Assembly (NCBI RefSeq): GCF_004339085.1
Contig: NZ_SMFX01000001.1
Coordinates: forward strand, 881,227-945,226
Source: Thiogranum longum
Lineage (GTDB): Bacteria; Pseudomonadota; Gammaproteobacteria; DSM-19610
DNA: 64,000 nucleotides
Direction of reading: 5' to 3'
Numbering within the stretch: position 1 is the stretch's first letter; each line of letters begins with the position of its first letter. Both the position numbers and the translations under genes were made by a program. Shown one piece after another: positions 16,429 to 39,451 of this stretch. Under the pieces are notes generated by a model. That model saw nothing but the letters and a program-made list of their open reading frames with translations, searched no databases and was not told the DNA's origin.

Positions 16429-16534
16429 TGGTATGCGGCATACTGCCTGTCATTCAACCGGGAGACGCCCGGTTGCCGCGGAAAGCCCGCCCCGGGGTCC
16501 GTGTTCTTGAAGATGCAACAGTCGGGAGAAGACG

Positions 16535-17584
16535 ATGGACGATAACAAACGCAAGGCACTCAGCGCAGCACTTGGTCAGATCGAAAAACAGTTTGGCAAG
16601 GGCTCGGTCATGCGCATGGGCGATGTGGGCGCGGTACGTGACGTGGACGTTGTTTCCACCGGTTCGCTGGCACTGGATGTGGCGCTGGGGATTGGTGGTC
16701 TGCCGCGTGGACGCGTTGTCGAGATTTACGGGCCTGAGTCATCCGGCAAGACTACGTTGACCTTGCAGGCCATCGCCGAGTGCCAGAAGGCCGGCGGCAC
16801 GGCGGCCTTTGTCGATGCCGAGCACGCGCTGGACCCGGCGTATGCCGAGAAGCTGGGCGTGCAGATCGACGATCTGCTGGTCTCGCAGCCGGATACCGGC
16901 GAACAGGCACTGGAAATCACCGATATGCTGGTGCGCTCCGGCGCGGTGGATATCGTCGTGGTCGATTCGGTGGCGGCACTCACGCCCAAGGCCGAGATCG
17001 AGGGCGACATGGGCGATTCGCATATGGGCCTGCATGCACGGTTGATGTCACAGGCATTGCGCAAGCTGACGGCTAACATCAAGCGTTCCAATACACTGGT
17101 GGTCTTCATTAACCAGATTCGTATGAAGATCGGCGTCATGTTCGGCAGCCCGGAAACCACCACCGGTGGTAATGCGCTCAAGTTCTACGCCTCGGTGCGA
17201 CTGGACATCCGCCGTATCGGCGCCATCAAGAAGGGTGACGAGATTGTCGGCAACGAAACCCGTGTCAAGGTAGTGAAGAACAAGATGGCGCCGCCCTTCC
17301 GCCAGGCCGAGTTCGAGATCCTGTACGGTGAAGGTATTTCACGTGAAGGTGAGCTGATTGACCTGGGCGTCAAGAACGACCTGATCGACAAGGCCGGTGC
17401 CTGGTACAGCTACAACGGTGACCGTATTGGCCAGGGTAAGGACAATGTACGCAAGTACATGAAGGAACATCCCGAGATGGCCGTGGACATCGACCGTCAG
17501 TTACGCGCCATGCTGCTGGAAACCAACACAGTGGAAGAGACGAAAGTGGATGAAGAGGTCGACGCCGCAGAAGTCAAACACTGA
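16535..17584 (+). CDS. recA: recombinase RecA
   Basis: A 349-aa RecA. Walker [14 protein letters not shown] lies at about residues 67-79, Walker B in [12 protein letters not shown] (about 140), and the DNA-binding loops L1 and L2 ([16 protein letters not shown] and [21 protein letters not shown]) are intact. The acidic C-terminus [16 protein letters not shown] is normal. It forms filaments on single-stranded DNA for recombination and LexA cleavage. GGGAGAAG precedes the start. It overlaps recX by 35 nt. Confidence 0.98.
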
Positions 17585-22723: not shown

Positions 22724-22800
22724 GCGCCCGTAGCTCAGCTGGATAGAGTACCTGGCTACGAACCAGGCGGTCGGGAGTTCGAATCTCTCCGGGCGCGCCA
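22724..22800 (+). tRNA. tRNA-Arg (ACG)
   Basis: A 77-nt tRNA with encoded CCA. Acceptor GCGCCCG/CGGGCGC, D arm GCTCAGCTGGATAGAGT, anticodon stem CCTGG/CCAGG with ACG anticodon, T arm TCGGGAGTTCGAATCTCTC. Its last 45 bases are repeated at 23981-24025, so the gene is the attachment site of the element that follows. Confidence 0.95.
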
Positions 22801-22856
22801 ATTTTCTATTCATATCAGCATGTTACATGCATTCCGCATAGCCGGTTTCCTCATGT

Positions 22857-22895
22857 CTGTCCAATAGGGGGGAGAATATCCATTCTATTGGACAG
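22857..22895. repeat. inverted repeat CTGTCCAATAG, left cluster
   Basis: A perfect 11-bp inverted repeat (CTGTCCAATAG at 22857-22867, CTATTGGACAG at 22885-22895) with a 17-bp spacer. The same core occurs at 23852, 23914 and 24083. Confidence 0.75.
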
Positions 22896-23093
22896 GTGCC
22901 GTCTTTTTGCGCCTTCATCTGAACGACTAATCCCCGCGCAAGTACTCGCTGCACATAAGAAAAGTTCATTGTGCCGTGGTTCTTACGATGAACTGTTGAA
23001 TATTGCACGTCTGGGTGGGACCTGTGTGATGACGATCTGCTACAGGCGCTGTTTTAGTTGTGATGAGTTTACTATCCGTATCGTTACCGAACC

Positions 23094-23144
23094 TCCCAAA
23101 TTGGGATATTTCTACTTGCTCCCATAACGGGAGGATGCTAGAGT
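23094..23144 (+). promoter_or_regulatory. higBA promoter with two operators
   Basis: TTGCTC (23116-23121), 17-bp spacer, TAGAGT (23139-23144). Two inverted repeats flank and fill it: TCCCAA-A-TTGGGA (23094-23106) and CTCCC-ATAAC-GGGAG (23119-23133). The ATG of higB at 23151 lies seven bases beyond the last base of the -10, so the message should be leaderless. Confidence 0.6.
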
Positions 23145-23150
23145 GAGCCG

Positions 23151-23456
23151 ATGAGAGTGATCGCAAAGTCCATGCTGCGGAAGTTTTGGGAGAGTAGTCC
23201 GAAATACAGAGATGCAAGGAAGCAAATGACGGAATGGTATAACTTCTGTGCAGCGGCAGAGTGGAGTACGCCGCACAAATTAAAGGCGGATTTACGTAAT
23301 GCGAGTATCTTAAAGAATAACCGTGTTGTTTTTAATCTATGTGGGAACAAGTACAGAATTGTAGTGCTTGTCGATTATATCCGGCACGGGATGCTGATTC
23401 GCTTTGTAGGGACACATAAGGAATACGACGAGATTGAGGATATTGAGAATATTTGA
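23151..23456 (+). CDS. higB: HigB-type mRNA interferase toxin
   Basis: A 101-aa toxin of the HigB family, which cuts mRNA within translating ribosomes. Signatures: WYNFCAAAEWSTPHKLKADLRNASILKNNRVVFNLCGNKYRIVVLVDY (central beta sheet) and IRFVGTHKEYDEI, where THKEYD is a hallmark of the host-inhibition-of-growth type. It is encoded before its antitoxin, the HigBA order. No ribosome site is evident upstream of the ATG. Confidence 0.88.
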   Translation: MRVIAKSMLRKFWESSPKYRDARKQMTEWYNFCAAAEWSTPHKLKADLRNASILKNNRVVFNLCGNKYRIVVLVDYIRHGMLIRFVGTHKEYDEIEDIENI

Positions 23457-23461
23457 GGTGC

Positions 23462-23815
23462 ATGATGAAACTGAGGCCCATCAAAAATGAACGTGAACTG
23501 AATCGTGCGTTAAAGCGCATCGATGAGCTTTGGGGTGCAAAACCCAATACGCCAAGAGGCGATGAACTGGATGTTCTGATGTTGCTCGTAGAAAAATATG
23601 AAGATGAGCATTATGCCATTCCCGCATCAGATCCCGTTGAGGCGATCAAGTTCTTGATGGAGCAGAACAGCTTGTCGCGCAAAGACCTGGAACCGTATAT
23701 CGGAACGAGTGGGCGTGTGTCCGAGGTATTGGGTAAAAAGCGAAATTTGACGCTGACAATGATCCGGAAATTACATGAAGGCCTGAAGATTCCGTACGAG
23801 TGTCTCATTGCGTGA
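23462..23815 (+). CDS. higA: HigA-type HTH antitoxin
   Basis: A 117-aa antitoxin. The N-terminal arm (LRPIKNERELNRALKRIDELWGAKPNTPRGDELDVLMLLVEKYEDEHY) is the typical toxin-binding part of this HigA group, followed by an Xre-like HTH (about residues 62-105: VEAIKFLMEQNSLSRKDLEPYIGTSGRVSEVLGKKR). Two adjacent ATGs (23462 and 23465) are possible starts; GAGGTG lies close upstream. It should repress the operators at 23094-23133. Confidence 0.88.
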   Translation: MMKLRPIKNERELNRALKRIDELWGAKPNTPRGDELDVLMLLVEKYEDEHYAIPASDPVEAIKFLMEQNSLSRKDLEPYIGTSGRVSEVLGKKRNLTLTMIRKLHEGLKIPYECLIA

Positions 23816-23851
23816 AGTGATCACAAGTACTAAGTAACATGAGTAAATCAC

Positions 23852-23924
23852 TTGTCCAATAGAAAGCATCAAATAACCCCAAATACAGGCAAATATAGCC
23901 AAATAGCCCGATTTTATTGGACAG
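23852..23924. repeat. inverted repeat TTGTCCAATAG, right cluster
   Basis: TTGTCCAATAG (23852-23862) and its near reverse complement TTATTGGACAG (23914-23924) flank an AT-rich segment with AAATA repeats. A further copy (TTGTCCAATAG, 24083-24093) lies just outside the tRNA repeat. Confidence 0.7.
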
Positions 23925-23980
23925 TGTATCTCGTATAAAAGCTAATAATTACAACAATATACAGGGGTTCAGTCGGAACA

Positions 23981-24025
23981 CTACGAACCAGGCGGTCGGG
24001 AGTTCGAATCTCTCCGGTCGCGCCA
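23981..24025 (+). repeat. att repeat: duplicated 3' end of tRNA-Arg
   Basis: Forty-five bases identical to tRNA-Arg positions 22756-22800 except one (T at 24018 for G at 22793). It covers the anticodon loop through the CCA end, the usual crossover segment for tyrosine integrases that use tRNA genes. It lacks the 5' half and is not a functional tRNA. Confidence 0.9.
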
Positions 24026-24185
24026 TAATTCTTTTTTAAATCAACTTGTTATAGCGATCTATTTGGCCGATTCTGTTAGTGGTTGTCCAATAGCGTTTAT
24101 AAAGACCCGTTTAAACAGGTAAGTGCTGTCATTACATGGGTATGGTATTGCCTGATGATGTGACGCAGCCACGCCGTCCCAACTG

Positions 24186-25679
24186 CTATTTCGGTTTTTC
24201 CACACCCAGGGACTTCATCCGTGATGCCAATGTTGTAGGTTTGATGCCAAGTAATTCAGCGGCACCATCCTTGCTCGATATTTTGCCGTTGGTGATCCGT
24301 AAGGCTGTAAGGATATTGGCACGGTCACGGGCCAGTCGTTCTGTTTCGGGGAAGGTGACATCTTCCGCTATTTCTCCTGCGGATCCGGTATATACAGTGT
24401 CTGTCTCAATGCCCTCACTCGGCAAACTGAACTGCAGCCGCCTGCCTTTGCTCACTATCAAGGCCCGCTCAATGACATTCTGCAGCTCGCGTATATTGCC
24501 AGGCCACTGGTAAGCCTGTAGCTGTCTGATATTAGTTTGTGTGAGGTTTGGTTCCGGGCGGTTCAGGCGGCGGCAGACCAGGGTGATGAAATGTGTAGCC
24601 AGCAACGGGATATCATCAATACGGTTTCTCAACGGTACTGCTTCAACGGGAAATACATTCAGTCGGAAGTACAGGTCCTCGCGAAAACGCCTGGATTCGA
24701 TATCCTCTTTCAGGTCACGGTTTGATGCGGCAACAACACGCACATCAATCGTACGGGTTTTTTCCTCGCCGACCCGTTCGAACTGCCCTTCCTGCAAGAC
24801 ACGCAGCAGCTTGCTTTGCAGCTCCATGGGGATTTCCCCGACTTCATCCAGAAAGATGGTGCCGCCATTAGCGAGTTCAAACCGGCCGGTGCGGTCCTTG
24901 AGTGCGCCGGTAAAGGCGCCTTTGACATGGCCGAAGAATTCGCTCTCGAACAATTCGCGGGGTATCGCCGCGCAATTGACCCGGATTAATGGGCGTTCGT
25001 TCCGGGTGCTCTGCTCATGTATTGCGCATGCAATTAATTCTTTGCCAGTCCCTGATTCCCCGCTGATCAGGACGCTGGCATCGGTGGGTGCGACCAGTTC
25101 AATCTGGTGTAATACCTGCTGGACGGCATGGCTCTGTCCGACAATGCCCGCGAAGTTCCTTTCAACCTTGATCTCTTCCTGCAGATAAATGTTCTCGGCT
25201 TCCAGGCGTCCTTTCATCTGCTCGACTTCGGCATAAGCCTGGCGTAATTCCTGTTCTGCCTGTTTACGTTCCGAGATGTCCTTGAATACCACTACAGCGC
25301 CAGCCAGCTCTCCGTTTTCGATGATGGGTGTACTGGTATATTCCACTGGAAAGCTGCTGCCGTCCTTGCGCCAGAAGACTTCATCTTCCACGTGATGCAC
25401 GATGCCATCCTTGAAGGCAGCATAGATAGGGCATTCCTCCCTGGGAAATGGTGAGCCGTCAGCCCTGGTGTGGTGGTGCAGTGAATGCATGGGTTGACCA
25501 ATAAGCGCGTCTGTTTCCCACCCAAGCATGCGTGCGGCGGCAGGATTGACGAAGGTCGTCTTACCTTCACAATCGAGGCCATAGAGACCTTCACCGGCCG
25601 CCTGAAGAATCAGGTCATGCAGTTGTTTGATTTGCTCCAGCTCGGTTTGTGACTGAGATGATGATTTTCCTGCTTCCAT
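24186..25679 (-). CDS. PAS-domain sigma-54 dependent transcriptional activator
   Basis: A 497-aa regulator: an N-terminal PAS domain (about residues 20-140, LHDLILQAAGEGLYGLDCEGKTTFVNPAAARMLGW), a coiled linker, an AAA+ sigma-54 interaction domain (Walker A GESGTGKE, the GAFTGA loop that contacts sigma-54, Walker B GGTIFLDEVGE) and a C-terminal Fis-type HTH (NGKISSKDGAAELLGIKPTTLASRMKSLG). The ATG at 25679 is chosen because AGGAGT precedes it; 25724 is an alternative. It is divergent from the hydrolase cluster and is its likely regulator. The PAS ligand is unknown. Confidence 0.9.
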   Translation of the reverse strand: MEAGKSSSQSQTELEQIKQLHDLILQAAGEGLYGLDCEGKTTFVNPAAARMLGWETDALIGQPMHSLHHHTRADGSPFPREECPIYAAFKDGIVHHVEDEVFWRKDGSSFPVEYTSTPIIENGELAGAVVVFKDISERKQAEQELRQAYAEVEQMKGRLEAENIYLQEEIKVERNFAGIVGQSHAVQQVLHQIELVAPTDASVLISGESGTGKELIACAIHEQSTRNERPLIRVNCAAIPRELFESEFFGHVKGAFTGALKDRTGRFELANGGTIFLDEVGEIPMELQSKLLRVLQEGQFERVGEEKTRTIDVRVVAASNRDLKEDIESRRFREDLYFRLNVFPVEAVPLRNRIDDIPLLATHFITLVCRRLNRPEPNLTQTNIRQLQAYQWPGNIRELQNVIERALIVSKGRRLQFSLPSEGIETDTVYTGSAGEIAEDVTFPETERLARDRANILTALRITNGKISSKDGAAELLGIKPTTLASRMKSLGVEKPK

Positions 25680-25759
25680 GTTCCGGGTACTCCTGGCTAA
25701 TCCTGACAGGCCCTGCCTTTCCATCTACAGGCTTGTTCCGCTCGATTGAGCATAGTTTG

Positions 25760-25783
25760 ATCTCGTGAATTACACAACGAGAT
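25760..25783. promoter_or_regulatory. candidate upstream activator site
   Basis: A perfect 7-bp inverted repeat ATCTCGT-N10-ACGAGAT in the divergent intergenic space, 24 bp in total, suits a dimeric Fis-type HTH. About 90 bp downstream, TTGGCACG (25873-25880) resembles a sigma-54 -24 element, but its -12 half (GTGAA) is a poor match. Confidence 0.45.
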
Positions 25784-25947
25784 TTCGTTATTCGCGATTA
25801 TTCGTAACAACCGTCATGCCCATGAAACACAGTAATTATTGTTTATACAAGCAGTTACCAATACTCAATAAGTTGGCACGCATAGTGAAAAGGAAGAAGT
25901 GAGCAAGTAGAGAGCTCGCTGACAATACATCCAATATGAGAGAGATC

Positions 25948-26538
25948 ATGATGAAGAGGTATGGCGTTATTTTGATTCTGTTGTTCTTTCCGGTCATGAC
26001 ACATGCGACCAGTGAGGCACCAATTGACTTGATCCGCACAACCACAGAGCACGTGTTGGCCAGGCTTGACGCGGATCCAGAGATCAAGACGAACCTTGAG
26101 AGGTTGTTTGTACTGGTTGAAGAGAACATTGCGCCCAACATTGATTTCAGGAAGCTATCACGCCTGGCGATTGGTAAACACTGGCGAGTGGCAAGTATCG
26201 ACCAGCAACAACGGTTCACAGGTGAATTCAAGCAACTACTGATTCGGACCTACTCAACCGCACTAGCCGAGTACTCCGGTCGAGGGATTACCTACCAGGC
26301 ACTGAATGCGAAAACAGTCGGGAAACGTGCGGCCGTCCGGGCGACGGTTGAACGATCTGGCGGCCCATCGATTGAAATCGACTACAGCCTGTATCAGGCA
26401 AAAAGTGGCTGGAAGATTTACGACATGAAAGTCGAGGGTATCAGTTTGGTTCTCAATTACAGAACCAGCTTCAACCGGGAAATACGTACCAATGGAATGG
26501 ATGGATTAATCAGACATCTTGCAGTCCTGAATCAATAA
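25948..26538 (+). CDS. MlaC/Ttg2D-like phospholipid-binding periplasmic protein
   Basis: A 196-aa exported protein of the MlaC family, which ferries phospholipids across the periplasm. A signal peptide (to about residue 19, VMTHA) is followed by IRTTTEHVLARLDADPEIKTNLERLFVLVEENIAPNIDFRKLSRLAIGKHWRVAS, a classic opening, and a C-terminal VEGISLVLNYRTSFNREI. The usual partners mlaABDEF are absent, so this orphan probably serves the adjacent cluster. The start could also be 25936 or 25951. Confidence 0.87.
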   Translation: MMKRYGVILILLFFPVMTHATSEAPIDLIRTTTEHVLARLDADPEIKTNLERLFVLVEENIAPNIDFRKLSRLAIGKHWRVASIDQQQRFTGEFKQLLIRTYSTALAEYSGRGITYQALNAKTVGKRAAVRATVERSGGPSIEIDYSLYQAKSGWKIYDMKVEGISLVLNYRTSFNREIRTNGMDGLIRHLAVLNQ

Positions 26539-26632
26539 TCGCTGAGGTACACATTCTCGACATTATTCTTGCGATTTCAGTGAAAACGGCCGGAATGCCG
26601 CTTGAGGCAAACCATACACAAGAGGAGACACC

Positions 26633-27625
26633 ATGATGAAGACATCAATTATATTTTCAAAAGCACTACTGGTTGTGGCGCTGGTTGCCACGGGATTTAC
26701 CCATGCAGCCAATCAATCAACGTTGGCGACGGATCAACATGTCGAGGTAGCCACCACACAAACACTGCACAAGACCATCAATATCGATGGCGTGGAGATA
26801 TTTTACCGAGAGTCGGGTCCGGTGAATGCACCTGTGATCCTGTTACTACACGGGTTTCCGACTTCATCCCACATGTTTCGTAACCTGATGCCGGCGCTGT
26901 CGGACCGCTTTCACGTGGTTGCGCCTGACTATCCCGGTTTTGGAAACAGTGCACAGCCGGGTGTGGATGAGTTTGATTACACATTCGACAACCTGGCGAA
27001 TATTACGCAGAAATTCGTTGATAAACTGGGCCTGAAACGCTACAGCCTGTATTTAATGGATTACGGTGCACCGGTCGGTTTTCGTTTGGCGGTGAAGCAT
27101 CCTGAACGGATCGATTCACTGATCGTGCAGAACGGCAATGCGTACGTAGAAGGGCTGCGTGAATTTTGGGACCCGATCCGCAAGTACTGGAAAGATCGCA
27201 CGCCCGAGAATGCGCAGCCCCTGGCCGGGTTTATTGCACCGGACGGTGTGAAGTGGCAATACACCCATGGTGTCAGGAATGAAGCAGCGATCAGTCCGGA
27301 TAACTGGAATGTCGACCTGCGGCACCTGACGCGGGAAGGTAATCCTGATATCCAGCTTGCGCTTTTCTACGACTACCAGAGTAACGTGCCGCACTATCCG
27401 GCATGGCAGGCCTACTTCCGCAAACATCAGCCACCGACCCTGATTGTCTGGGGAAAGAACGACTACATCTTCCCGGCAGAGGGTGCGCATCCCTACAAAC
27501 GTGATTTGAAAAACCTCGAGTTCCACTTGCTGGATACCGGGCATTTTGCGCTTGAAGAAGATGGCCAGGTGATTGCCAATGCTATACGGCGGTTCCTGAA
27601 CCAACAGGTTGCACTGGTGAGGTAG
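26633..27625 (+). CDS. exported alpha/beta hydrolase
   Basis: A 330-aa alpha/beta-fold hydrolase of the haloalkane-dehalogenase/epoxide-hydrolase branch. A signal peptide ends at about residue 25 (GFTHA). The oxyanion motif [15 protein letters not shown] (about residues 79-93) precedes [15 protein letters not shown], where Asp replaces Ser in the nucleophile elbow (D-Y-G-x-P), as in dehalogenases and epoxide hydrolases. The late Asp ([10 protein letters not shown]) and His ([10 protein letters not shown]) complete the triad. Good AGGAG ribosome site. Substrate unknown. Confidence 0.87.
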
Positions 27626-27646
27626 GTCGCGCGGTCGTCAGCGTGT

Positions 27647-27678
27647 CAGGGAGCCCGCGGAAGTTTGCAGGCTCCCTG
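27647..27678. other. intercistronic stem-loop
   Basis: CAGGGAGCC (27647-27655) and GGCTCCCTG (27670-27678) form a strong 9-bp stem between the alpha/beta hydrolase and the cysteine hydrolase. There is no T run, so it is more likely an mRNA-processing or stability element than a terminator. Confidence 0.5.
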
Positions 27679-27734
27679 AACATTACACCTTCAGGTTATC
27701 CGAATAGTTTGACCGAAACCAGGGAGATCCGAAC

Positions 27735-28475
27735 ATGAACATAAAGACCGCTATTACTGCATCGCTACTGATTCTTTCGCAGGCAATTTCCGGTATGACA
27801 CACGCAGCGTTGCCCGATCCGGGACTGCATGTTGAAAAAGGTCGCACGGCACTTGTCATAACCGATCCACAAAACGATTTCCTGAGCCCCAAGGGTGTGA
27901 CGTGGGGTGTAGTCGGCAAGAGTGTGACCGCGAACAACACGGTCGAGAATATCGAGACATTGCTCAAGAGCGCGAAGGCCAACGGCATCCCGGTGTTTAT
28001 TTCCCCTCACTACTACTTTCCCCACGACCACGGCTGGCAGTTCGAGGGTGCACTCGAGAAGCTGATGCACAACATCGGCATGTTCGACCGCAAGGATGCT
28101 CTGAGCGTGGAGGGATTCGAGGGTTCCGGTGCCGACTGGCTGGAACGATACAAGCCCTACATCGAAGATGGCAAGACCGTCGTGACCAGTCCACACAAGG
28201 TCTACGGACCGGAGACCAACGATCTTGTTCTGCAACTGCGCAAGCGCGGTATTGACAAGGTCATCCTGGCCGGCATGTCCGCCAATCTTTGCACCGAGTC
28301 ACACATGCGGGAGTTGATTGAGCAGGGCTTCGAAGTGGCTGTCGTGGAGGACGCAACAGCTGCTGCGCAGGTCGAGGAAGGTGATGGTTATGCCGCTGCG
28401 CTAGTGAATTTCCGCTACATAGCCAACACGGTATGGACGACCAAAGAAGCTGCGCAGGCAATACGAGGAAACTGA
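27735..28475 (+). CDS. exported isochorismatase-like cysteine hydrolase
   Basis: A 246-aa protein of the isochorismatase/nicotinamidase fold with a signal peptide (to about residue 22, MTHA). The catalytic Asp lies in ALVITDPQNDFLSPKG and the nucleophile Cys in ILAGMSANLCTESHMRELIEQGF, with the cis-peptide just before. Export of this fold is uncommon. It follows the alpha/beta hydrolase and is four bases upstream of the SDR gene. The substrate is not predictable. Confidence 0.86.
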   Translation: MNIKTAITASLLILSQAISGMTHAALPDPGLHVEKGRTALVITDPQNDFLSPKGVTWGVVGKSVTANNTVENIETLLKSAKANGIPVFISPHYYFPHDHGWQFEGALEKLMHNIGMFDRKDALSVEGFEGSGADWLERYKPYIEDGKTVVTSPHKVYGPETNDLVLQLRKRGIDKVILAGMSANLCTESHMRELIEQGFEVAVVEDATAAAQVEEGDGYAAALVNFRYIANTVWTTKEAAQAIRGN

Positions 28476-28478
28476 GTC

Positions 28479-29258
28479 ATGGAATTTTCAAACAAAGTAG
28501 TCCTTATCACGGGCGGTGCCACCGGTATCGGGCGGGAAACTGCACGTGCCTTTCTGGAATGTGGTGCCAACGTCATCCTGAATGGTCGGCGTGAGATTAA
28601 ATTGCAGGAAGCGATCACAGAACTTGACCCAACGGGTAAGCGCGTGGCTTATCTGGTGGGCGATATCGGTAAGCCGGAAACGGCTGGCCGGTTGGTTCGG
28701 GTAGCCGTTCAGTGCTTCGGAGGTGTCGATATTCTTGTAAACAATGCCGGTATTTTCAAGCCAACCCCCTTTCTTGATCATACTGTGGAGGACTACAACG
28801 ACTATGTAAGCATAATTCTTGGCGGCACATTCCATGCCTCTCAAGCGGCCATTCCTGAAATGCAAAAGCGTGGCGGTGGTGCGATCGTCAACACCGGCTC
28901 GATGTGGGCCAGCCAGGCGATAGGCGCCACGCCGTCCAGTGCGTACTCGGCTGCCAAGGCAGGTGTCCATGCCCTGACCAGGAACCTGGCCATCGAATTT
29001 GCAGCAGACCGTATCCGCGTGAATGCCGTAGCCCCCGCTGTGGTGGAGACGCCGGTCTACAACACGTTTATGAGTGATGAGGAAGTCAGGACAGTGCTGC
29101 CGCAGTTTAATGATTTTCATCCGCTTGGGCGTAATGGGCAACCTGGAGATGTGGCCTCAGCCATTCTTTTTCTGGCTGGCTCACAGGCGGACTGGATCAC
29201 TGGTGTGGTACTACCGGTGGACGGTGGAGTGACTGCAGGTCGGCACGTGAATGAGTGA
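28479..29258 (+). CDS. SDR family oxidoreductase
   Basis: A 259-aa classical short-chain dehydrogenase. Cofactor motif TGGATGIGRETA (residues 11-22), NNAGI (about 87-91), catalytic Ser in NTGSMWAS, and YSAAK (YxxxK, about 157-161) are all present. Arg after the glycine motif region (NGRRE) suggests NADP preference. It ends with VVLPVDGGVTAG, typical of the family. It starts three bases after the cysteine hydrolase stop and lacks a signal, so it acts in the cytoplasm. Confidence 0.92.
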   Translation: MEFSNKVVLITGGATGIGRETARAFLECGANVILNGRREIKLQEAITELDPTGKRVAYLVGDIGKPETAGRLVRVAVQCFGGVDILVNNAGIFKPTPFLDHTVEDYNDYVSIILGGTFHASQAAIPEMQKRGGGAIVNTGSMWASQAIGATPSSAYSAAKAGVHALTRNLAIEFAADRIRVNAVAPAVVETPVYNTFMSDEEVRTVLPQFNDFHPLGRNGQPGDVASAILFLAGSQADWITGVVLPVDGGVTAGRHVNE

Positions 29259-29307
29259 CAGGGAGAGATCTTGATGTTCGACTATCCGGAAAAGGAGACT
29301 TGTCGTC

Positions 29308-29841
29308 ATGAGACGTGAGACAAGAACAAACCGCAAACATACGTTCCTGAACGGCTTGCTGTTCCGTCACCAGCCAGGCCAGCCCTTGTCCGTCGTAGTG
29401 AAGGCCGGCCTGGGCGGGTTACTCGCGATTGGTGCCGTAGCATGGCTGAGTCATGTCACTGGAAACCCGTTACTCATGGCGCCATTCGGGGCGACCTGTG
29501 TGCTGTTGTTCTCCGTACCCAATAGCCCACTCTCTCAGCCGGCAAACGTCATCGGTGGGCACCTGGTGTCAACAGCCATCGGGCTCCTGTTGCATATGAT
29601 GTTGCCCGTGGAATGGTGGAGCCTGGGGCTGGCGGTGGGGTTGGCGATTGCAGCGATGGCGGTCCTGCGGGTGACGCATCCGCCCGCGGGGGCAGACCCG
29701 CTGGTGGTGTTCTTCGACAACCCGGGCTGGGTGTATCTGGGATTTCCTGTCGCGTTCGGCGGCCTGGCACTGATAATGATCGCGTGGTTGTTTCACCGTC
29801 TTCCGCCCAGCGTTGTCTATCCGACAACCAAACAGGGCTGA
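29308..29841 (+). CDS. HPP family membrane protein
   Basis: A 177-aa four-helix membrane protein of the HPP family, named for the conserved His-Pro-Pro seen here as RVTHPPAGADPLVVFF (about residues 113-128). Other hallmarks are PLLMAPFGATCVLLFSVPNSPLSQPANVIGGHLVS. Some HPP proteins transport nitrite; this has not been shown generally. A second HPP protein lies at 37249-37971. Its stop codon adjoins the integrase remnant. Confidence 0.88.
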   Translation: MRRETRTNRKHTFLNGLLFRHQPGQPLSVVVKAGLGGLLAIGAVAWLSHVTGNPLLMAPFGATCVLLFSVPNSPLSQPANVIGGHLVSTAIGLLLHMMLPVEWWSLGLAVGLAIAAMAVLRVTHPPAGADPLVVFFDNPGWVYLGFPVAFGGLALIMIAWLFHRLPPSVVYPTTKQG

Positions 29842-30071
29842 GCATTTCCACCACAGATTTGGCAATTCGGTTCAATACCGCCAACCGGTCCTCCCGTTTT
29901 GACCTTCTTCCCCGGAATGATGAACACCGAGGTGTTCAGTTCCGGTACCTGGATTTCCCAATCCCGGCGCAGCTGGCAGGCCTCCTGTTCCCGACAGCCC
30001 GTATTGACCTTGTACAGGCACATACGGGCCTGATGATCCGGGAGTGCCTGGAACAACGCACGTTGCTCCAT
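29842..30071 (-). pseudogene. tyrosine integrase remnant (frameshifted)
   Basis: On the minus strand, one frame reads EQRALFQALPDHQARM and then KVNTGCREQEACQLRRDWEI, containing the catalytic Arg box (TGCREQE) of phage-type integrases, followed by VPELNTSVFIIPG. The continuation VLNRIAKSVVEM is in another frame near 29845-29880. Both termini are missing, so this is the middle of a dead integrase, truncated at the HPP stop codon. Confidence 0.75.
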
Positions 30072-30093
30072 CAGGTGATTACACCTGGTCGCT

Positions 30094-30645
30094 TTAGCCG
30101 CCAGTAGCCCTGCGCATTTTCATGTCCATCTTGTAACGTTGAACACACCTGTTCCAAAAGAGCTTCGCCTGTTCGAGACCAAGTTGTCGATGGCGGATCC
30201 CCTTCACCCCATCTACGCAAGGGTCGTTTTTGGTTCTGCCTTCGCGTTTCATGGCAGACATCCGCGTAGCCATTTCCTCTACGGTCGTGGGCATGGTGAT
30301 TTCGTCTTCGACGGATGCGGTTTCTGGCGATTTGTAGTTGTTGTAGGCCCGTTTGCAACGTTCCATCTGGGCCAGTTGCTGCTCTTGGCTTGGCGGTTTT
30401 CTATTGCTACCTGACAGGCCTTGATATGCCCTGCTGCAGGCAAGGCTACATTCGTCGACCAGTGTATTATTATACTGGCCTGTTTTACGGTTCATAGCAG
30501 AAGCCTGACTGCACTCCCTGGCTTTCCCTACAGCATCATCGGCAAGTGCTTGCATGGACGATGCATCGGCATATACCACGCCGGTCGATACGTAGCCTGC
30601 AAAGAACAGGCAAGCCGAGGTTAGGTATCTGATAATTTTTTGCAT
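30094..30645 (-). CDS. exported hypothetical protein
   Basis: A 183-aa protein with a clear signal peptide (to about residue 26, VVYA) and a helical, charged mature part with seven or so cysteines in C-x3-C style spacings (VDECSLACSRAYQG, MERCKRAYNNYKS, FWNRCVQRYK). These pairs suggest disulfides in the periplasm. AGGAGG lies just upstream. It is the last of three consecutive minus-strand genes for exported proteins (30094-33772). I do not recognise the family. Confidence 0.72.
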   Translation of the reverse strand: MQKIIRYLTSACLFFAGYVSTGVVYADASSMQALADDAVGKARECSQASAMNRKTGQYNNTLVDECSLACSRAYQGLSGSNRKPPSQEQQLAQMERCKRAYNNYKSPETASVEDEITMPTTVEEMATRMSAMKREGRTKNDPCVDGVKGIRHRQLGLEQAKLFWNRCVQRYKMDMKMRRATGG

Positions 30646-30656
30646 ATATCCTCCTG

Positions 30657-31340
30657 TTACTTGTAGGCTTCTGGCTTCTTGCAGTACATTCTGGCTTTGA
30701 AGTCAGTTTTAACCCTGCGTCCCTTGTTGGAAACGAGTATTTCTGCATTCCGCCTGCCGTAGCATTGGCAATAGGCCTCCGGGTCATGCCCCCCCGTATC
30801 TTGATTAAACGCGTTGTGCTGGACGCATTGCTTGTATTTAAACTCTCGGAACCCCTTGGCATTCGGGCACTGGTTCTTGTCGAGTATCAGACTCCGCAGA
30901 CTCTCTTTGTTTCCCTTCGTCTCTGCCAGGAGCCCATCCTGAAACTTGCGGGCGACACATTCGCAATCATTTTGAATCCGCACCGAGGCTTTTTTATAAC
31001 ACCAGGCCTTAACCTCCTCGGCTTCCTTCGCTACCGCAGGACTGGCAGCAACAGCAGGAGGAGGCGTTGAAGCTTTAACGGGTTCTACCGTCGTCTCTGC
31101 GACGGTTGCCGCAGGAGGAGCGCTGTCTTGCTTGGGTGCAGTATCAGATGTCTTTTCACTTTTGTCGGAAGGCCGGAAAATATCCTTAAGGTCCGTGGAC
31201 TTGATTTTATCGACGATGTCACTGGGAAATAAATCTCCGAGCCCCCCGGCAGATGACATCTGTGGCACAAGCAGCAGCGAAAGGCATATCACCATAGCGA
31301 ACACCTGTAAAAAATCAGAATTACCGTGAGTTCGGTGCAT
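30657..31340 (-). CDS. exported hypothetical protein, cysteine-containing
   Basis: A 227-aa protein. The ATG at 31340 has AAGGAGAA upstream and gives a signal peptide ending near SSAGG; an ATG at 31391 is less likely. A Pro/Ala/Lys-rich low-complexity linker (about residues 60-105) separates it from a C-terminal domain with repeated Cys motifs (WCYKKASVRIQNDCECVARKF, YCQCYGRRN). Like its neighbour it may be disulfide-bonded. Family not recognised. Confidence 0.72.
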   Translation of the reverse strand: MHRTHGNSDFLQVFAMVICLSLLLVPQMSSAGGLGDLFPSDIVDKIKSTDLKDIFRPSDKSEKTSDTAPKQDSAPPAATVAETTVEPVKASTPPPAVAASPAVAKEAEEVKAWCYKKASVRIQNDCECVARKFQDGLLAETKGNKESLRSLILDKNQCPNAKGFREFKYKQCVQHNAFNQDTGGHDPEAYCQCYGRRNAEILVSNKGRRVKTDFKARMYCKKPEAYK

Positions 31341-31408
31341 GTGTTTCTCCTTGTTACTTAACAGACGGGTATGTGAATAAAAATGATTCATGTATCAGGC
31401 TCCACGGC

Positions 31409-33772
31409 TTACTGTCGGGCACTTTGAACAGCGCCTCGCTGTACAAAAGGCAGACTGATGTCATAAGGGTGCAGACGCCGCAGTCGGAAACCGGCATTGC
31501 TTTGCGTCATGCCGCTGGCAGGCACTGGCTTGCGGGCCAGCTCTTTTCCATCCAGCGAGACACTGACCAGTTCCTGTAAATTACCCCGCATTACACTGAA
31601 CAGGATGCGGTTCTTGTCCGGCAACACAAGATAACTTGCGTCATGATACAAGGGCGTCGACCAGACAGCCTGCGCCGCCGAGGCAAAAGCACGGTTCTGC
31701 GCATGAATTTTCTCGTCTGCGTAAAAGTGGCTGAGACGCGTGAGTTTTTTGCTGCGAATATCATAGAGCCAGGTACCTAGCTCGTTCAATCCACCTTTAC
31801 GGATCGGATAGACATAACGGTTCTCATCGACCCAGACAACGCCCTGCCTGCTTGCCACGTCACCGAACAGAGGTAAGGAAATCGCCTTACCCGTTACACG
31901 TTCGAGCCGGTAGCGTTTTTTGATCTGCTTATCTTTCTGCGCGTCTGTTGATTGCAAGAACCCGGTATAACTCACTTCTATATGACGATCACCGGGAATC
32001 GGCAACATATCGAGTGGCCTTATACTATAAGGCAAATCCTTGACGACCCCGGCAAAGTCATGTGGACTGATACGCTTCCGATTGGTGAGATCGAACCAGC
32101 CGAACTGCCGTGAACTCCAGAACAAGCCCCGCCCGACCCATGACTGGACCATGATTGCCTGCGCCAAGGCGGGCTGTTTTTGTGTGCCGACATAATGTCG
32201 ACCGTCAAAGCTGGCATCCAGAGTAAAAGTCTCAAGACTGCGAAGGTCGGCGACATACAGGTTACTTTTGGCACCTTGCGCTGAATGCACCATGCGCCCG
32301 TCACTGGTGAAAAGAAAACAGCCGTCAGGACTGCCCTGGGCCGAGTGATGAAGCGCCTTGCTTTCGGACATTTCCTTCAGCTCGCCGGATTGCGTGTTAA
32401 CGCGCAGGATGGGTTTGTCTGACGCCTGCGGATTGAAAAAGAACACGTGTTGTTCACACCATGCAAAGGGCTTGAGATTATTCAGCACACCGATGCCGGT
32501 CAGATTTTGGGGTGCACTGGCAGTACCAGCCTGCCAATCCAGTGTGCCGGCCCAGACATCACCTTGTTTCAGGCTGACATAGCGCGACAAGTCTGACGCT
32601 ACCCAGGTTGGCGCACTGATACCTGCCAACGGGTTGAACGATACGCGTTTGGGATCCTCGGTATGCACGTCGCTGGCGCGGTAAGCGCCGAAAGGTGCCG
32701 AGGTCAACTGGTAGTTAGTCTGCATAGGCCAGAAGCGGCCCGGCAGGTTCGTCACCTGCGCCAGTGGCTGGATTCCCCAACCATCGCTAACCCGTTCCAG
32801 GGTATTCACATTGATCAGCATATTACCCAGCTGTGCATAGTCGGATTTATCCCCCTCGAACTGCCAGGGCGCGCGTTCGCGCTCAAAAGTCTGCCTCAAT
32901 AATTCGCTCTTCGAGCGGCTTAAGGGAATAACAGGCCCGCGTCGCGCCACCAGTTGATCGTCCTCCAGCGACACACGGTACAGTGTACGAGGCACACCCT
33001 TGCCGGCGGGGCTGGCGGGCTTGATCTGCAACGTCAGGCTCCCGGCAGGCCCCATGAGGACGAAGGGATTGCTCAGTCCCTGATTCGGGTAATCAATGAT
33101 GCCTTCCAGCGAGTGATCACCCGTCTGTTTGAGTGCGCGCAGCACCACAGGCGACCCCTTATAGGCACCCCAGGTCTCCTCGCCCCAGATAGCCTTCTGG
33201 TCACCGAACATACCCAGGAGCTGTTGAACGGGACCTGCCAGAGCGGGTTTAGAAGCTTTCGCTTGTGAGTTCACGGGCGTGGCTGGAGCGAGTGACGCTG
33301 CCTCCGCTTCGTTGTCGACAATGACAAAACCCGCCGGGTAGCTGCCCAGTGGCAAGCCTGCTTCATTCTCGGCACCAGGACTCAGAACCACCTGTATCTG
33401 ATTGGCACCGAGGCCGCCGGTATCGGCCACCACAGCCTGACCCTTCAGCACAATGCGCTCACCCTTTGGCCGGGTCTGGCGCACCAGCTGCTTGCCATCG
33501 TGTTGCTGGCCAGTCCGCCTGTATAAGGGTTCTTTCAGCTCGACGATGACTTCCAGCGCCAGTTGATTGATGCTGACGGGGCCTTTTCGTACCTGCTTGA
33601 TCAGGCTGTGGGACCACTCGCGCAATTCGTAGGCGGCATCCAGTTGTTGGCGGATGGCCTGTTCAATTTCCGTTTTCGGGAGTGTGTCGGATTCGGCCTG
33701 AGCCATCAGAGAGAACAGGACAGGCACAATGAACAGAACAAACACCCGTGCTGGTGCCAGCAGATTTGACAT
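31409..33772 (-). CDS. large exported hypothetical protein, possible beta-propeller
   Basis: A 787-aa protein with a signal peptide (to about residue 26, MAQA). From about residue 330 it holds repeated short beta-strand units separated by W/D-rich turns (VSLKQGDVWAGTLDWQAG, LKPFAWCEQHVFFFNPQ, GCFLFTSDGRMVHSAQG, LYVADLRSLETFTLD), reminiscent of a TolB/WD-like propeller as in prolyl-oligopeptidase N-domains. No hydrolase triad is visible. It heads the three-gene cluster. Confidence 0.75.
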   Translation of the reverse strand: MSNLLAPARVFVLFIVPVLFSLMAQAESDTLPKTEIEQAIRQQLDAAYELREWSHSLIKQVRKGPVSINQLALEVIVELKEPLYRRTGQQHDGKQLVRQTRPKGERIVLKGQAVVADTGGLGANQIQVVLSPGAENEAGLPLGSYPAGFVIVDNEAEAASLAPATPVNSQAKASKPALAGPVQQLLGMFGDQKAIWGEETWGAYKGSPVVLRALKQTGDHSLEGIIDYPNQGLSNPFVLMGPAGSLTLQIKPASPAGKGVPRTLYRVSLEDDQLVARRGPVIPLSRSKSELLRQTFERERAPWQFEGDKSDYAQLGNMLINVNTLERVSDGWGIQPLAQVTNLPGRFWPMQTNYQLTSAPFGAYRASDVHTEDPKRVSFNPLAGISAPTWVASDLSRYVSLKQGDVWAGTLDWQAGTASAPQNLTGIGVLNNLKPFAWCEQHVFFFNPQASDKPILRVNTQSGELKEMSESKALHHSAQGSPDGCFLFTSDGRMVHSAQGAKSNLYVADLRSLETFTLDASFDGRHYVGTQKQPALAQAIMVQSWVGRGLFWSSRQFGWFDLTNRKRISPHDFAGVVKDLPYSIRPLDMLPIPGDRHIEVSYTGFLQSTDAQKDKQIKKRYRLERVTGKAISLPLFGDVASRQGVVWVDENRYVYPIRKGGLNELGTWLYDIRSKKLTRLSHFYADEKIHAQNRAFASAAQAVWSTPLYHDASYLVLPDKNRILFSVMRGNLQELVSVSLDGKELARKPVPASGMTQSNAGFRLRRLHPYDISLPFVQRGAVQSARQ

Positions 33773-33952
33773 ACAGGATCCCCCGAATTGTTGTTATGAC
33801 GCCAGGATAACCTGTGTGGCAACCGCGTCCATGCTTGTTATTTTTTCAGACTGAAGGAAAGTATAACGATCACCTGTATGAGGTGGCAAATCAGTTATTG
33901 AAGGTGTGTTTACGCACGAAGTAAACCTGTTAGCTTGTCTGTCGCTATCAGG

Positions 33953-33982
33953 TCACTCCCACTCAATCGTCGCCGGCGGCTT
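33953..33982 (-). repeat. guaA 3'-end remnant (island att site)
   Basis: On the minus strand this reads AAG CCG CCG GCG ACG ATT GAG TGG GAG TGA, i.e. KPPATIEWE and a stop, the invariant C-terminus of GMP synthase. No guaA coding sequence precedes it in frame. The guaA 3' end is a common integration site for genomic islands, and displaced copies of this end mark island borders. The rest of 33773-34080 shows no gene. Confidence 0.7.
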
Positions 33983-34080
33983 ACCTGTACCCGCCCGGCC
34001 ATTTCAGAGAAACGCCTGTCACTGACGAATCAGGGGAAGGTTTGCTATGAGCTGAAAACCCGTATCGTGGTTGCACGACC

Positions 34081-34260
34081 CACGTCATCGAGGATGAGAC
34101 ATTACATTTCATTGAGCAGCATAAACTGATGGGGCAGGGAGTCGGTTATATTGATGCGCATTTGCTGGCCGCCGTGGCGCTGGAAGGCACCGCCCGGTTG
34201 TGGACACGGGACAAGCGGCTGCACACCGTAGCCGAATCATTGTCACAGGCTGCCAGTTAG
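34081..34260 (+). pseudogene. VapC-type PIN-domain C-terminal remnant
   Basis: A frame ending at 34260 reads HVIEDETLHFIEQHKLMGQG then VGYIDAHLLAAVALEGTARL then WTRDKRLHTVAESLSQAAS. YIDAHLLAAV and LWTRDKRL are the last two acidic motifs of VapC PIN toxins. The N-terminal half with the first catalytic Asp is missing and no antitoxin is near. Confidence 0.75.
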
Positions 34261-34290
34261 CGACTAAAATGCTAACGGCGAACAAGGCGC

Positions 34291-35286
34291 TCAGGGCACT
34301 GTTGGCCCTGGTTTTCCTTCAAGGTTGGCGCTGACCAGCGTAGCAAGAAAGTCAGTGAAAGGCGCAATATCCTCAGTGCTGCTGGCGGCTTCGAGTGCTT
34401 TCATATAGGCGTCGCGTTCCTCTACAGGAATGACCGTCCACGGATAGCCGCCGGCGGCCAGCATAACATTCATTAAAAACCGTCCCAAGTGCGTCCATTG
34501 CCATCCATATAAGGGTGGATATATACAAACATGAAATGCCCCAGTACAAACCGAACAGCCGGGGATGACAGGCTGTTTTGTTTCAAATGGATCAGATTCG
34601 CGCACGTCATAATCGGCGGCGCGCATCGTTGCCACAATATCGTCTGCCGTGCGATCACGCCCCATATTGCGAAAGGCGCCAGCCAGCCGCCCGGCAATGG
34701 TGGTATGTCCACCTTCAAGGAGTCTTGCAAGGATTTCAGAGGCATCAGAAATAATGGAAAGTGCAGCGCGAATATCGGTCGGGTTTTGTTGAAATAATCT
34801 GGGCGTGCATTCAATCAGGGCTGGCAGCAGGGCATACAGGTTCATGCCATTTTTTGTTTCTATGTCCCGCTTGTCCGGCATGCTGTACCTGACAGTCAAG
34901 AGTGACGTGCCATGGGGGAGTTCTGTGATCTTGTTATCACTCTTCGGCGAACGGACTAAAAGCTGGCGCGGTACGGTGCGGTTACCGGCGTGCAGTTGCA
35001 GGGACGGCTCTGGAGACAGGCACCAGTTTGTGCCAAACCGCTCGTTCAGATATGAAGCGCAAAAATCCCGGAATGAGGCATACCAGGCGGTGCTTTCCCC
35101 GGCCACCTCATCAGGGCGGGACGGGATGTACCACCCTTTCATGACGGGCTGTAGAAAGCCGTTCTTAACAAGGCGTTCCCGGTCGGTACGTCCCAGGTCA
35201 CTTGAGCGGATAGCGACCACGCCAAGATCCTGAAGCGCTTTCAAAGCTTCCAGCGATCGGGCCAGTTTTTCTGAGGGCACAGCCAT
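34291..35286 (-). pseudogene. Fic-family gene with internal deletion and frameshifts
   Basis: The first 245 or so codons (MAVPSEKLARSLEALKALQD...) match the N-terminal winged-helix region of a group of about 500-aa Fic proteins I recall. The middle, about 165 residues, is missing after ESDPFE. The catalytic motif HPYMDGNGR survives at 34491-34517 but in another frame (VLGHFMFVYIHPYMDGNGR); the main frame resumes at GRFLMNVMLAAGGYPWTVIPVEERD. So a single open frame spans the locus by accident while the AMP-transferase site is destroyed. Very likely non-functional. Confidence 0.75.
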
Positions 35287-35355
35287 GTTCTACACGCTCT
35301 TCATCGGTTTTTGTGTTGTATTTAACCCAGGATATTAAGTTGTACCATTAATAGG

Positions 35356-35460
35356 TTATTCTTCGAATCTTTCCAGGTGCGCAATACGTCTCAAATGCTC
35401 GGGTGCAAGATGGGTATACCGCAACATCCCGCTAAGTATCCGGCCTGCCGCTAACATGTA
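35356..35460 (-). pseudogene. tyrosine integrase C-terminal remnant
   Basis: The minus strand ends ...MLRYTHLAPEHLRRIAHLE plus RFEE and a stop. RY-x-HLAPEHL contains the nucleophilic Tyr and the closing helix of phage-type integrases. Upstream in this frame there is no integrase core, only about 35 codons are convincing. A piece of a second dead integrase or of the one at 29842-30071. Confidence 0.65.
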
Positions 35461-35602
35461 TCGAAAAAAACGATAACAGCATTCAATAAATATCATTATT
35501 CGAATAGCCTGACGCGACCTATAGTCACGCACGACAAAGTAGCTCGATACCGTAAGCAGGTAGCGGCTGTTTGAAAAGAGGTTTTTCTTTCGAGGTGAAG
35601 CA

Positions 35603-36244
35603 ATGATTGCCGTGCGAGTGTTTATGAAATTCACGAATGAACCCCTGAAGCGTACGCCGGTGGTGATTCAAATGGATGCGGATGGTGTTGAGACCGGGCC
35701 GATACCGACCGATCGGACCGGGGTCGCGCATTTCGATTTGCCGCCGGGCAGTGGCAAGGTGCTGGTCTCGGGCGTGGAGCGCTATCACGGTCGCCTTGAG
35801 GGTGAAATTCCCGTGGCGTTGTGGTCTGTCACCGAGTCGGCCAATGAGTCGACCGGTGCACCGGGTGAATTTCCGGCCGGCAGTAATGCCTACCCGGGCA
35901 TGACGACTTGCCCCGTTGAGGTGGAAGGTCGAACGATTCTGACCGACAGTGAGGGCTATCTGGTGAATCCCGCCGACTGGTCGGAGGCATTTGCAAAAGT
36001 TCAGGCTGCGCGTGAGGGGCTGACGCTCACTGGCGAGCACTGGGAGGTTATCCGGTTTCTACGTAAGCACTACGCTGAACACGGTCACCAGGCCAGTGTC
36101 CGTGACATGATCAAACATTTTCGTAAGCTCTGGGATGCGGAGCGTGGCTCCAATCGTTATCTGCATACGCTATTTCCTGTTGGCGGTCCGCAGAAACAGG
36201 GCAACCGCCTTGCCGGACTGCTGCGTACCAAGGGCGAACATTGA
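35603..36244 (+). CDS. DsrC/TusE-like protein with N-terminal extension, lacking redox cysteines
   Basis: A 213-aa protein. Residues 1-75 form a beta-rich domain (MIAVRVFMKFTNEPLKRTPV, then a GVAHFDLPPGSGKVLVSG strand pair) of Ig/carboxypeptidase-regulatory appearance; residues 104-213 are a DsrC/TusE domain (VEVEGRTILTDSEGYLVNPADWSEAF, HWEVIRFLRKHYAEHG, RYLHTLFPVGGPQKQGNRLAGL). Canonical DsrC ends with two redox cysteines; here Asn201 stands at the inner one and the tail ends TKGEH, so both are absent. It is likely regulatory or structural rather than a sulfur carrier. GAGGTGAAG precedes the ATG. Confidence 0.85.
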   Translation: MIAVRVFMKFTNEPLKRTPVVIQMDADGVETGPIPTDRTGVAHFDLPPGSGKVLVSGVERYHGRLEGEIPVALWSVTESANESTGAPGEFPAGSNAYPGMTTCPVEVEGRTILTDSEGYLVNPADWSEAFAKVQAAREGLTLTGEHWEVIRFLRKHYAEHGHQASVRDMIKHFRKLWDAERGSNRYLHTLFPVGGPQKQGNRLAGLLRTKGEH

Positions 36245-36268
36245 TGCAGGTTGAGGAAGGACGACCCG

Positions 36269-37132
36269 TCAGGTAACGGAGCCGCTGGTCTGTTCCTGTA
36301 GCGCGAGTTCACGCAATCCGGCAAGGCCCGACTGTAACACCTCACTGTCCGCCTCGCGCGGGAACACCATATAGGCGGGATGCAGAAATTCGGGGGCGTC
36401 AGCCACACGAAACAGGCGGCCGGCCTGAATGAAGGAGCGGGCCATACGGACTGGCAGGAAACAGGAGCCCCCGTTTGCCAGGATGAGCTGAATACCCAGC
36501 CAGCCGATGTTGACGACCTGCGCCGGCCGTTCAAGGTCGGGATAGCTTTCAAGATGCCTGGCATAAAAGCCCGGGCCCCATTCCACGTAAATGTAGTCCT
36601 CACCTGGCCAGCGTGTATCAGGATGCGTGCTGACCATGACCAGTGTCTCGTCGAACAGGCGTTCCACGATCAGGCCCGGCGCGTGGCTCGGCGTGTACAT
36701 CAGCCCGATATCGAGTGTGCCTTCGATCAGTCGCCTCATCAGGTCTTCCTCGAACCCGATCTCGCTGCGGATAGAAACGTCCGGTGCGGTTCGGCGCATC
36801 CAGCCAACCCAGGACGGCAGGAAGTCCTCCCACAAGGCGATACGTCCCCCAACCCGCAGGCTGGCGCTGAAACGGCTGGGCAATCCCACGTCATGGCGCG
36901 CCTGTTCCACGGTCAGCACCAGGGTCTTGGCATGTTGCAGAAAGCGTTGCCCGGCCGGTGTCAGGCTGGCCCCGGCCCGGTTGCGCACAAACAGCCTGGC
37001 ACCCAGTTCATCTTCCAGGTTCTGGATGCGGGCGCTGACGGTCGATTGGGTGACATGCAGGCGCCGGGCTGCCTCCAGGAAACTGCCATGGGCTGCAATC
37101 GCAAGAAAAGTGCGAGCCTGGTCGATATCCAT
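36269..37132 (-). CDS. LysR family transcriptional regulator
   Basis: A 287-aa LTTR. N-terminal HTH: DIDQARTFLAIAAHGSFLEAARRLHVTQSTVSARIQNLEDELGARLFVR (residues 2-50), followed by the periplasmic-binding-like effector domain (about 90-275). It is divergent from the HPP gene at 37249, with two palindromes in between, and convergent with the DsrC-like gene after 24 bases. The effector is unknown; control of the HPP transporter-like gene is the natural hypothesis. Confidence 0.92.
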   Translation of the reverse strand: MDIDQARTFLAIAAHGSFLEAARRLHVTQSTVSARIQNLEDELGARLFVRNRAGASLTPAGQRFLQHAKTLVLTVEQARHDVGLPSRFSASLRVGGRIALWEDFLPSWVGWMRRTAPDVSIRSEIGFEEDLMRRLIEGTLDIGLMYTPSHAPGLIVERLFDETLVMVSTHPDTRWPGEDYIYVEWGPGFYARHLESYPDLERPAQVVNIGWLGIQLILANGGSCFLPVRMARSFIQAGRLFRVADAPEFLHPAYMVFPREADSEVLQSGLAGLRELALQEQTSGSVT

Positions 37133-37153
37133 CCTGATGCATTCATGCCCTAT

Positions 37154-37192: not shown

Positions 37193-37248
37193 TAGTCACC
37201 TATAGACTGCACTACTATGATGCAAAACTTCAGCTAAAAGGAGCATTC

Positions 37249-39412: not shown

Positions 39413-39451
39413 AATTCAGTTACGATTCTTTAAGGAAAGAGAGAATATATT

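Follow-up and report, generated by a model that had tools for sequence, protein, structure and literature searches.

How does a 1.2-kb segment that encodes a toxin–antitoxin pair and nothing else come to lie between two copies of a tRNA 3' end when it has no integrase of its own? We analysed the locus in a 64-kb window, by which we mean the whole stretch of DNA under study, positions 881227-945226 of a complete 2.92-Mb genome. The original prediction had described a minimal island at tRNA-Arg and had offered two origins for it: a satellite that uses another element's integrase, or the addicted stump of a larger island. The features that define the segment are the following.

22724-22800, forward strand: intact tRNA-Arg(ACG), the integration site (ARAGORN)
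22756-22800, forward strand: att copy 1, the 45-bp 3' end of the tRNA-Arg gene
23151-23456, forward strand: higB toxin gene, 101 aa (Pfam PF09907 HigB_toxin, 9e-27)
about 23462-23815, forward strand: higA antitoxin gene, about 117 aa (PDB HigA 5ifg/5ycl, E 2.5e-5)
23981-24025, forward strand: att copy 2

The 45-bp repeat said to flank the segment is present, its two copies being 44/45 identical with a spacing of 1225. When a 35-base att core was searched for with up to 3 mismatches allowed, these copies were the only two sites in the whole 2.92-Mb genome, and the backwards control of the core gave 0 matches there. Between them (22801-23980), no credible genes other than higB and higA are present, as had been claimed: HigB is identified by Pfam and by its match to E. 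coli HigB in PDB 5ifg (E 3e-6), and HigA by PDB, while a Pfam search gave no family for HigA and NCBIfam returned 0 matches for either protein. With a HigB of the RelE-like fold family, a HigA-type antitoxin and the toxin gene first, the pair is predicted to be a type II toxin–antitoxin system of the HigBA type. HigA also matched positions 1-118 of the 402-position PADLOC profile PD-Lambda-2_B. PD-Lambda-2 systems comprise further genes beyond the B protein. This defence system was rejected, as the antitoxin match is partial and there is no third gene in the HigBA unit. Both higB and higA are under purifying selection (dN/dS of 0.05-0.07 for higB and 0.04-0.07 for the two genes together), and at such values both proteins are evidently maintained; the pair may also help to retain the segment.

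Tyrosine recombinases were sought with an HMM built from 24 sequences taken as members of this class. Sixteen unit stretches, from the window, Thiohalobacter, G308, G281 and OFTM106, were scanned in six frames, and four control loci were positive. The sole match at E < 0.05, an integrase C-terminal tail, came from the left end of a single Fic unit. The HigBA unit and the units with differing cargo among these 16 stretches gave no tyrosine recombinase, in agreement with the integrase-free segment originally described. A Pfam tally of 61 ORFs, showing 25 of 94 families, cannot alone exclude a recombinase. The possibility that the left end is a decayed integrase tail, as in Fic units, was rejected, since the window's HigBA unit gave no such match. 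The unit is without integrase, relaxase and conjugation genes, which is the gene content of a CIME; an autonomous tRNA island, IME or phage satellite was dismissed because the unit has no integrase of its own. Integrase-less units carry Fic, AbiE, TOTE primase-helicase, Schlafen helicase, mer/cus efflux and nitrate-related genes.

If the segment was inserted by an integrase, its ends should be informative, and both have a structured layout.

22801-22920, forward strand: left end, sharing homology with those found in Thiohalobacter sp. 356-308 and SZUA-186
22858-22867 (forward) and 22885-22894 (reverse): left arm-like sites, TGTCCAATAG twice in inverted orientation with 17 bp between, following att copy 1
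23846-23980, forward strand: conserved right end (model R1)
23853-23862 (forward) and 23914-23923 (reverse, 1 mismatch): right arm-like sites, inverted and separated by 51 bp, ahead of att copy 2
23870-23905, forward strand: CAAATA four times at exact 10-bp intervals, flanked by the right arms

Exact TGTCCAATAG occurs four times in the 2.92-Mb genome, at 22858(+), 22885(-), 23853(+) and 24084(+), each of them less than 130 bp away from one of the att copies of the tRNA-Arg(ACG) locus; a fifth copy at 23914(-) has 1 mismatch. With up to 1 mismatch there are 6 matches in the 64-kb window, a number reached by 8 of 100 shuffles and hence at chance level. The count alone is therefore not above chance, and it is the exact clustering and the pairing that are unusual. 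The phasing of the CAAATA repeats (four repeats in 10-bp steps) was found in 0 of 100 shuffles. Known att sites of tyrosine integrases contain arm-type sites and a helically phased accessory (excisionase-like) site. By analogy, we infer that the TGTCCAATAG motifs are recombinase arm sites, and the phased CAAATA repeats are a candidate excisionase-like or accessory binding site. An att copy and putative arm sites thus appear to be kept on both sides, corresponding to the retention of attL and attR in CIMEs.

The same ends were then found elsewhere, including in metagenome-assembled genomes (SZUA-186, OFTM106, also designated G385, and Thiohalobacter sp. 356-308, the last being the closest named relative of the window in the genome collections). 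Scanning these collections for an inverted TGTCCAATAG pair gave 46 stretches, six of which lie at tRNA-Arg-like ends: L129 (Thiohalobacter sp. 356-308), L107 (SZUA-186) and L094, L102, L105 and L124 (OFTM106). The pair is spaced by 17 bp in all six; in L105 an insertion sequence lies between pair and att. A seventh 17-bp pair, L099 (Thalassotalea), was treated as chance because the locus has no tRNA or att match. For the remaining 39 pairs, the surrounding sequence was viewed in L109, L112, L114 and L121, and the other 35 were judged from the scan table.

Right ends with the identical 51-bp arm spacing occur in OFTM106, and the window end aligned with those of three OFTM106 elements has a mean column identity of 81%. 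The sequence-only model R1, trained on these four ends, matched 5 of 369 gammaproteobacterial genomes (the window's own, G308, G281, G175 and G075). The independent matches in G308 (1.4e-25) and G281 (1.4e-24) both lie directly before a tRNA-Arg end; the weak ones in G175 (5e-5) and G075 (6e-4) have no att or paired arms and were treated as chance. Among 23 chosen genomes, R1 matched in G385, G281 and G308 only. The arm spacing is 51 bp in all six full right ends (the window, two in L166, L168, L180 and L181), the second arm being degenerate in one L166 end. The 136-bp right end is thus kept in five other elements of three other genomes with unrelated cargo, and the units that share the cassette ends carry a Gp49/HTH_37 toxin–antitoxin-like pair, nitrate genes or mer/cus genes. 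Sixteen further genomes from the genus of the window gave no R1 match, which counts against a cassette. Fic-unit right ends in Thiohalobacter match R1 weakly (E 0.001-0.002) and have the layout in common. In OFTM106, the nitrate-related and mer/cus blocks with HigBA-type ends (L168:2812-19001 and L166/L167) are about 15-20 kb long and without a tyrosine recombinase.

A second repeat could also arise if the tRNA end were duplicated locally and nothing inserted, which the original prediction had named as the finding that would overturn it. We found nothing in favour of this. Relatives' ends and junctions exclude this: both the left and the right end match elements elsewhere, the second repeat is followed by the left end of another element, and in G002 the tRNA directly adjoins different sequence, with no att copy in the 14 kb examined. 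We regard local duplication as extremely improbable.

The left end that follows the second repeat places the HigBA unit in a longer structure.

24026-24104 (end approximate), forward strand: left-end remnant of a second, decayed element of like type, first arm (24084-24093) kept and second arm degraded
29820-30071, reverse strand: integrase gene fragment, 69-72% (blastn) to the L049/L058 integrase genes
34291-35286, reverse strand: pseudogene of a 516-aa Fic-domain protein, about 186 residues deleted and the frame changed
38128-38151, forward strand: third, degraded att copy (22/24), with inserted sequence like that of the L050 att copies
38279-40000, forward strand: chromosomal right flank of the array, 83% over 1.7 kb to L059:5300-3582, the flank of the G003 array

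L107 and L043 have left ends 81% identical to stretch 23981-24093. The integrase fragment matches the recombinase HMM (E 2e-9), and its family adjoins tRNA-Arg in Thiohalobacter G016 and G003. The Fic pseudogene has 82-93% DNA identity to Fic units in L044, L046, L048, L050 and L180. Given the second left end, the integrase fragment, the Fic pseudogene, the third att copy and the G003-type flank, whose genes (38279-40000) we take to be sulfur-oxidation genes, the array extends from 22756 to about 38278; from these borders, the whole of 24105-38127 would have been acquired. Judged from its sequence, the HigBA unit is the tRNA-proximal and sole intact member of a decayed tandem array of about 15.5 kb. 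The description as a minimal island therefore holds for the 1.2-kb HigBA-only unit and is incomplete, as the unit belongs to this array. The end motifs, the second left end immediately past 24025 and the remainder of the array up to about 38278 had gone unnoticed in the original prediction. G010, G011 and G016 also have arrays of units without an integrase, delimited by tRNA-Arg ends.

Several further features of the arrays were observed. The 516-aa Fic protein (gene at L044:1469-3019, homologs in L046, L048, L050 and L180) is the commonest single cargo of the mapped tRNA-Arg units in the genus and occurs in G308 as well. In L050:1652-1770 and 3801-3919 and in the window at 38128-38200, the T-loop region of the att copies is split by an insert of about 70 bp, and these inserts resemble each other in separate copies. 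From the second left end to the integrase fragment (24186-29258), the window carries genes for a sigma-54 regulator and for hydrolase-like, isochorismatase-like and SDR-like proteins, the latter three named by eye from sequence; relatives of the regulator (41%) and the SDR protein (35%) are found in an OFTM106 unit with window-type ends.

An array in this state invites the explanation that a larger island lost its integrase and most of its cargo in place and left HigBA with its att ends as an addicted, immobile relic. The decay of the rest of the array, with its integrase fragment and Fic pseudogene, favours it, and CIMEs are defined as such decay products (PMC5704250, PMC7563491). Decayed members would, however, be expected far from the tRNA, and the HigBA unit is proximal. 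The recurrence of the unit in other genomes also bears on this explanation. G308 (L180) carries the unit in full. The window and G308 copies are colinear over 1270 bp, at 85.6% identity over 938 bp (higB, higA and right end) and 75.8% over the 120 bp of the left end, and the intervening spacer gave no blastn match; in G308, higA is followed by the window-type right end at an identical junction. The next unit in G308 has a window-type left end and a different toxin–antitoxin-like pair (Gp49 + HTH_37), relatives of which precede a window-type right end in G281 (L181). In SZUA-186 (L107), the HigBA unit lies at the same alaS-lysC-csrA-tRNA-Ser-tRNA-Arg place as in the window and is 83.5% identical over 782 bp; this contig is anchored to chromosomal genes and ends inside higA.

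In both genomes the unit is closer to the window than the core genes are. The alaS genes of the window and G308 are 68% identical, and synonymous divergence is 0.52 for higA and 0.79 for higB compared with 1.97 for alaS; in SZUA-186, identity is 72% for alaS and 74% for lysC, and dS is 0.59 for higB, 1.38 for alaS and 1.78 for lysC. Stretch 16515-17493 (recA, named by eye) is 81% identical between the window and SZUA-186. The integrase-less HigBA unit recurs in two other genomes at 83.5-86% identity against 68-72% for alaS, and, as it does so without an integrase, it would have spread after losing one or without ever having had one. Since L180 is a 7.5-kb contig of array DNA only, a binning error could mimic transfer in G308. 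With higBA and right-end DNA as query, 14 of the 369 genomes of the class had some match, and the two occurred together in the window and G308 alone; Thiohalobacter G008 and G002 have higBA 81% identical without the conserved cassette ends. The tRNA-Arg of SZUA-186 (L107:730-786) is apparently some 20 bp short, with positions 1-13 joined to 33-77, and may be broken or misassembled.

For the HigBA unit, these data speak against the relic. The gene order and the right-end junction are identical in the integrase-less unit of G308, SZUA-186 shares the unit as far as its contig reaches, identity exceeds that of core genes in both, and deletion in place would have to have repeated itself identically. 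The relic is accordingly unlikely in our estimate: the predicted stump of a larger island is made less likely for the HigBA unit by the identical junctions in G308, and fits the remaining array DNA, from 24026 to about 38278, well.

Alternatively, the unit could spread only within larger DNA (arrays or chromosomal segments, through homologous recombination or transformation), its own ends not being recombined. The identity to G308 is not extreme (85.6%), G308 shares the Fic unit with Thiohalobacter arrays, and the search described below gave no cognate integrase, all of which would suit this explanation. However, in SZUA-186 the flanking alaS and lysC genes are at 72-74% and the unit at 83.5%, which puts an edge of similarity near the tRNA, and the noncoding ends are kept in elements with unrelated cargo. 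We therefore consider passive spread quite unlikely.

A cassette moved by a foreign enzyme calls for an integrase with matching arms, and none was found in the OFTM106 stretches around cassette ends. IMG/VR patterns, phages and plasmids gave 0 matches to the cassette ends or a matching enzyme, so that we know of no carrier, and no autonomous parent element with identical ends was found in the genomes, IMG/VR, phages and plasmids searched. That no integrase with matching arms was found counts against such a cassette.

The integrases adjoining tRNA-Arg in G016, G003 and OFTM106 are 367-369 aa long and share 69-91% identity among themselves. Their arm-like repeats are of another kind, TGCGGGA, and lie in the coding sequence of the C-terminal tail. 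These repeats encode the tail SRKSPAL, conserved in the tRNA-Arg members, and look like the family's own arm sites. The five loci of the family are L049:3721-4824, L058:6647-7750, L171:7626-8729, L172:7748-8857 and L170:8102-9310; in each, 16-20 bp separate the end of the gene from the 3' end of a tRNA, which is tRNA-Arg four times and tRNA-Met once. Such integrases may serve by accretion through the common core, and not as the matching enzyme.

Other helpers are not favoured. XerC/XerD were considered, as were the genome's other tyrosine recombinases (443 and 426 aa), which are 25-35% similar to the tRNA-Arg integrases and only locally so. In the stretches examined around these two there is no tRNA-Arg att and no TGTCCAATAG, L062 having short, chance-level tRNA matches only; the 426-aa enzyme lies at tRNA-Ala. 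In OFTM106, a 402-aa Arm-DNA-bind_2 integrase beside a cassette tandem was rejected because it is sited at a different, tRNA-Ser-like end (a likeness seen by eye), and a 377-aa integrase that neighbours both tRNA-Arg(TCG) and a left end with TGTCCAATAG is not favoured either, because its gene encodes the other arm type.

Taken together, we consider it fairly likely, from the sequence comparisons, that the HigBA segment is a non-autonomous, att-bounded, CIME-like cassette moved by an integrase from elsewhere. Its HigBA cargo would be bounded by a left and a right end, each with an arm-like pair, and by the tRNA-Arg att core. The tyrosine integrase of another element would bind the arm-like sites and either insert the cassette at the tRNA-Arg 3' end or release it from there. 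The cassette would move in trans, or jointly with an adjacent element that has the same core and encodes an integrase (accretion). Of the two predicted origins, another element's integrase is the better supported, now with matched arm-like sites at both ends and the integrase-less form in other genomes; the cassette probably travels with such help.

The closest known elements are CIMEs (Pavlovic 2004, cited in PMC5704250), which the HigBA unit resembles in having no integration or transfer genes, both att sites, and a tandem position with others at one target gene. Classical CIMEs of S. salivarius are reported to span 1.2-13 kb in PMC7563491, where surveyed CIMEs are always the most distant from the target gene, whereas the HigBA unit is tRNA-proximal. 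CIMEs are also described there as decay in place, while the integrase-less HigBA form recurs across genera with identical junctions and conserved ends; this recurrence argues for an old loss of the integrase. The Dehalococcoides ssrA islands (PMC3146451) likewise stand in tandem between copies of the 3' end of an RNA gene, and 15 without an integration module were called possible cis-mobilizable elements; they involve ssrA and a serine recombinase, whereas the HigBA array involves tRNA-Arg, presumably a different integrase, and toxin–antitoxin and defence cargo. Tycheposons of Methylophilaceae (PMC10872708) are also tRNA-bounded cargo elements involving tyrosine recombinases, but they measure 4-200 kb and carry a recombinase gene, in contrast to the 1.2-kb HigBA unit. 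E. coli HigBA (PDB 5ifg, 6kml) also has the toxin gene first and matches both proteins by sequence; the window's HigBA differs in being the sole cargo of an att-bounded unit. We recognised no described integrase-less toxin–antitoxin cassette at tRNA genes in the open-licence PMC literature. CIMEs are already known, and the HigBA unit differs from them as minimal, tRNA-proximal and itself widespread.

Integrase-less islands are usually dismissed as relics, yet this 1.2-kb element keeps a complete conserved end pair and recurs in other genera. If our interpretation is true, it would be among the smallest known toxin–antitoxin carriers whose site-specific movement depends on the enzyme of another element. 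The conserved ends provide a searchable signature for cassettes that are invisible to integrase-based annotation and make trans-mobilisation at tRNA genes directly testable. Toxin–antitoxin cassettes are common in integrons. Integron cassettes have attC hairpins, whereas the HigBA unit has a tRNA 3' end and double-stranded arm-like sites, and no integron integrase; a CALIN or integron cassette was accordingly rejected, there being no attC and the bounding repeats being tRNA-Arg 3' ends. A likeness nevertheless exists with CALINs, integrase-less cassettes moved in trans according to the review PMC11389934, in that the integrase is encoded elsewhere, as we propose for the HigBA unit. We tentatively raise the possibility of a tRNA-based analogue of the integron, in which integrase-less cassettes with a shared, conserved pair of attP-like ends would be inserted and stacked in trans at tRNA-Arg by an integrase encoded elsewhere, the small toxin–antitoxin ones thus circulating as units between bacterial families, the cargo of the cassettes comprising toxin–antitoxin pairs, possible defence genes, and genes for metal resistance and nitrate use.
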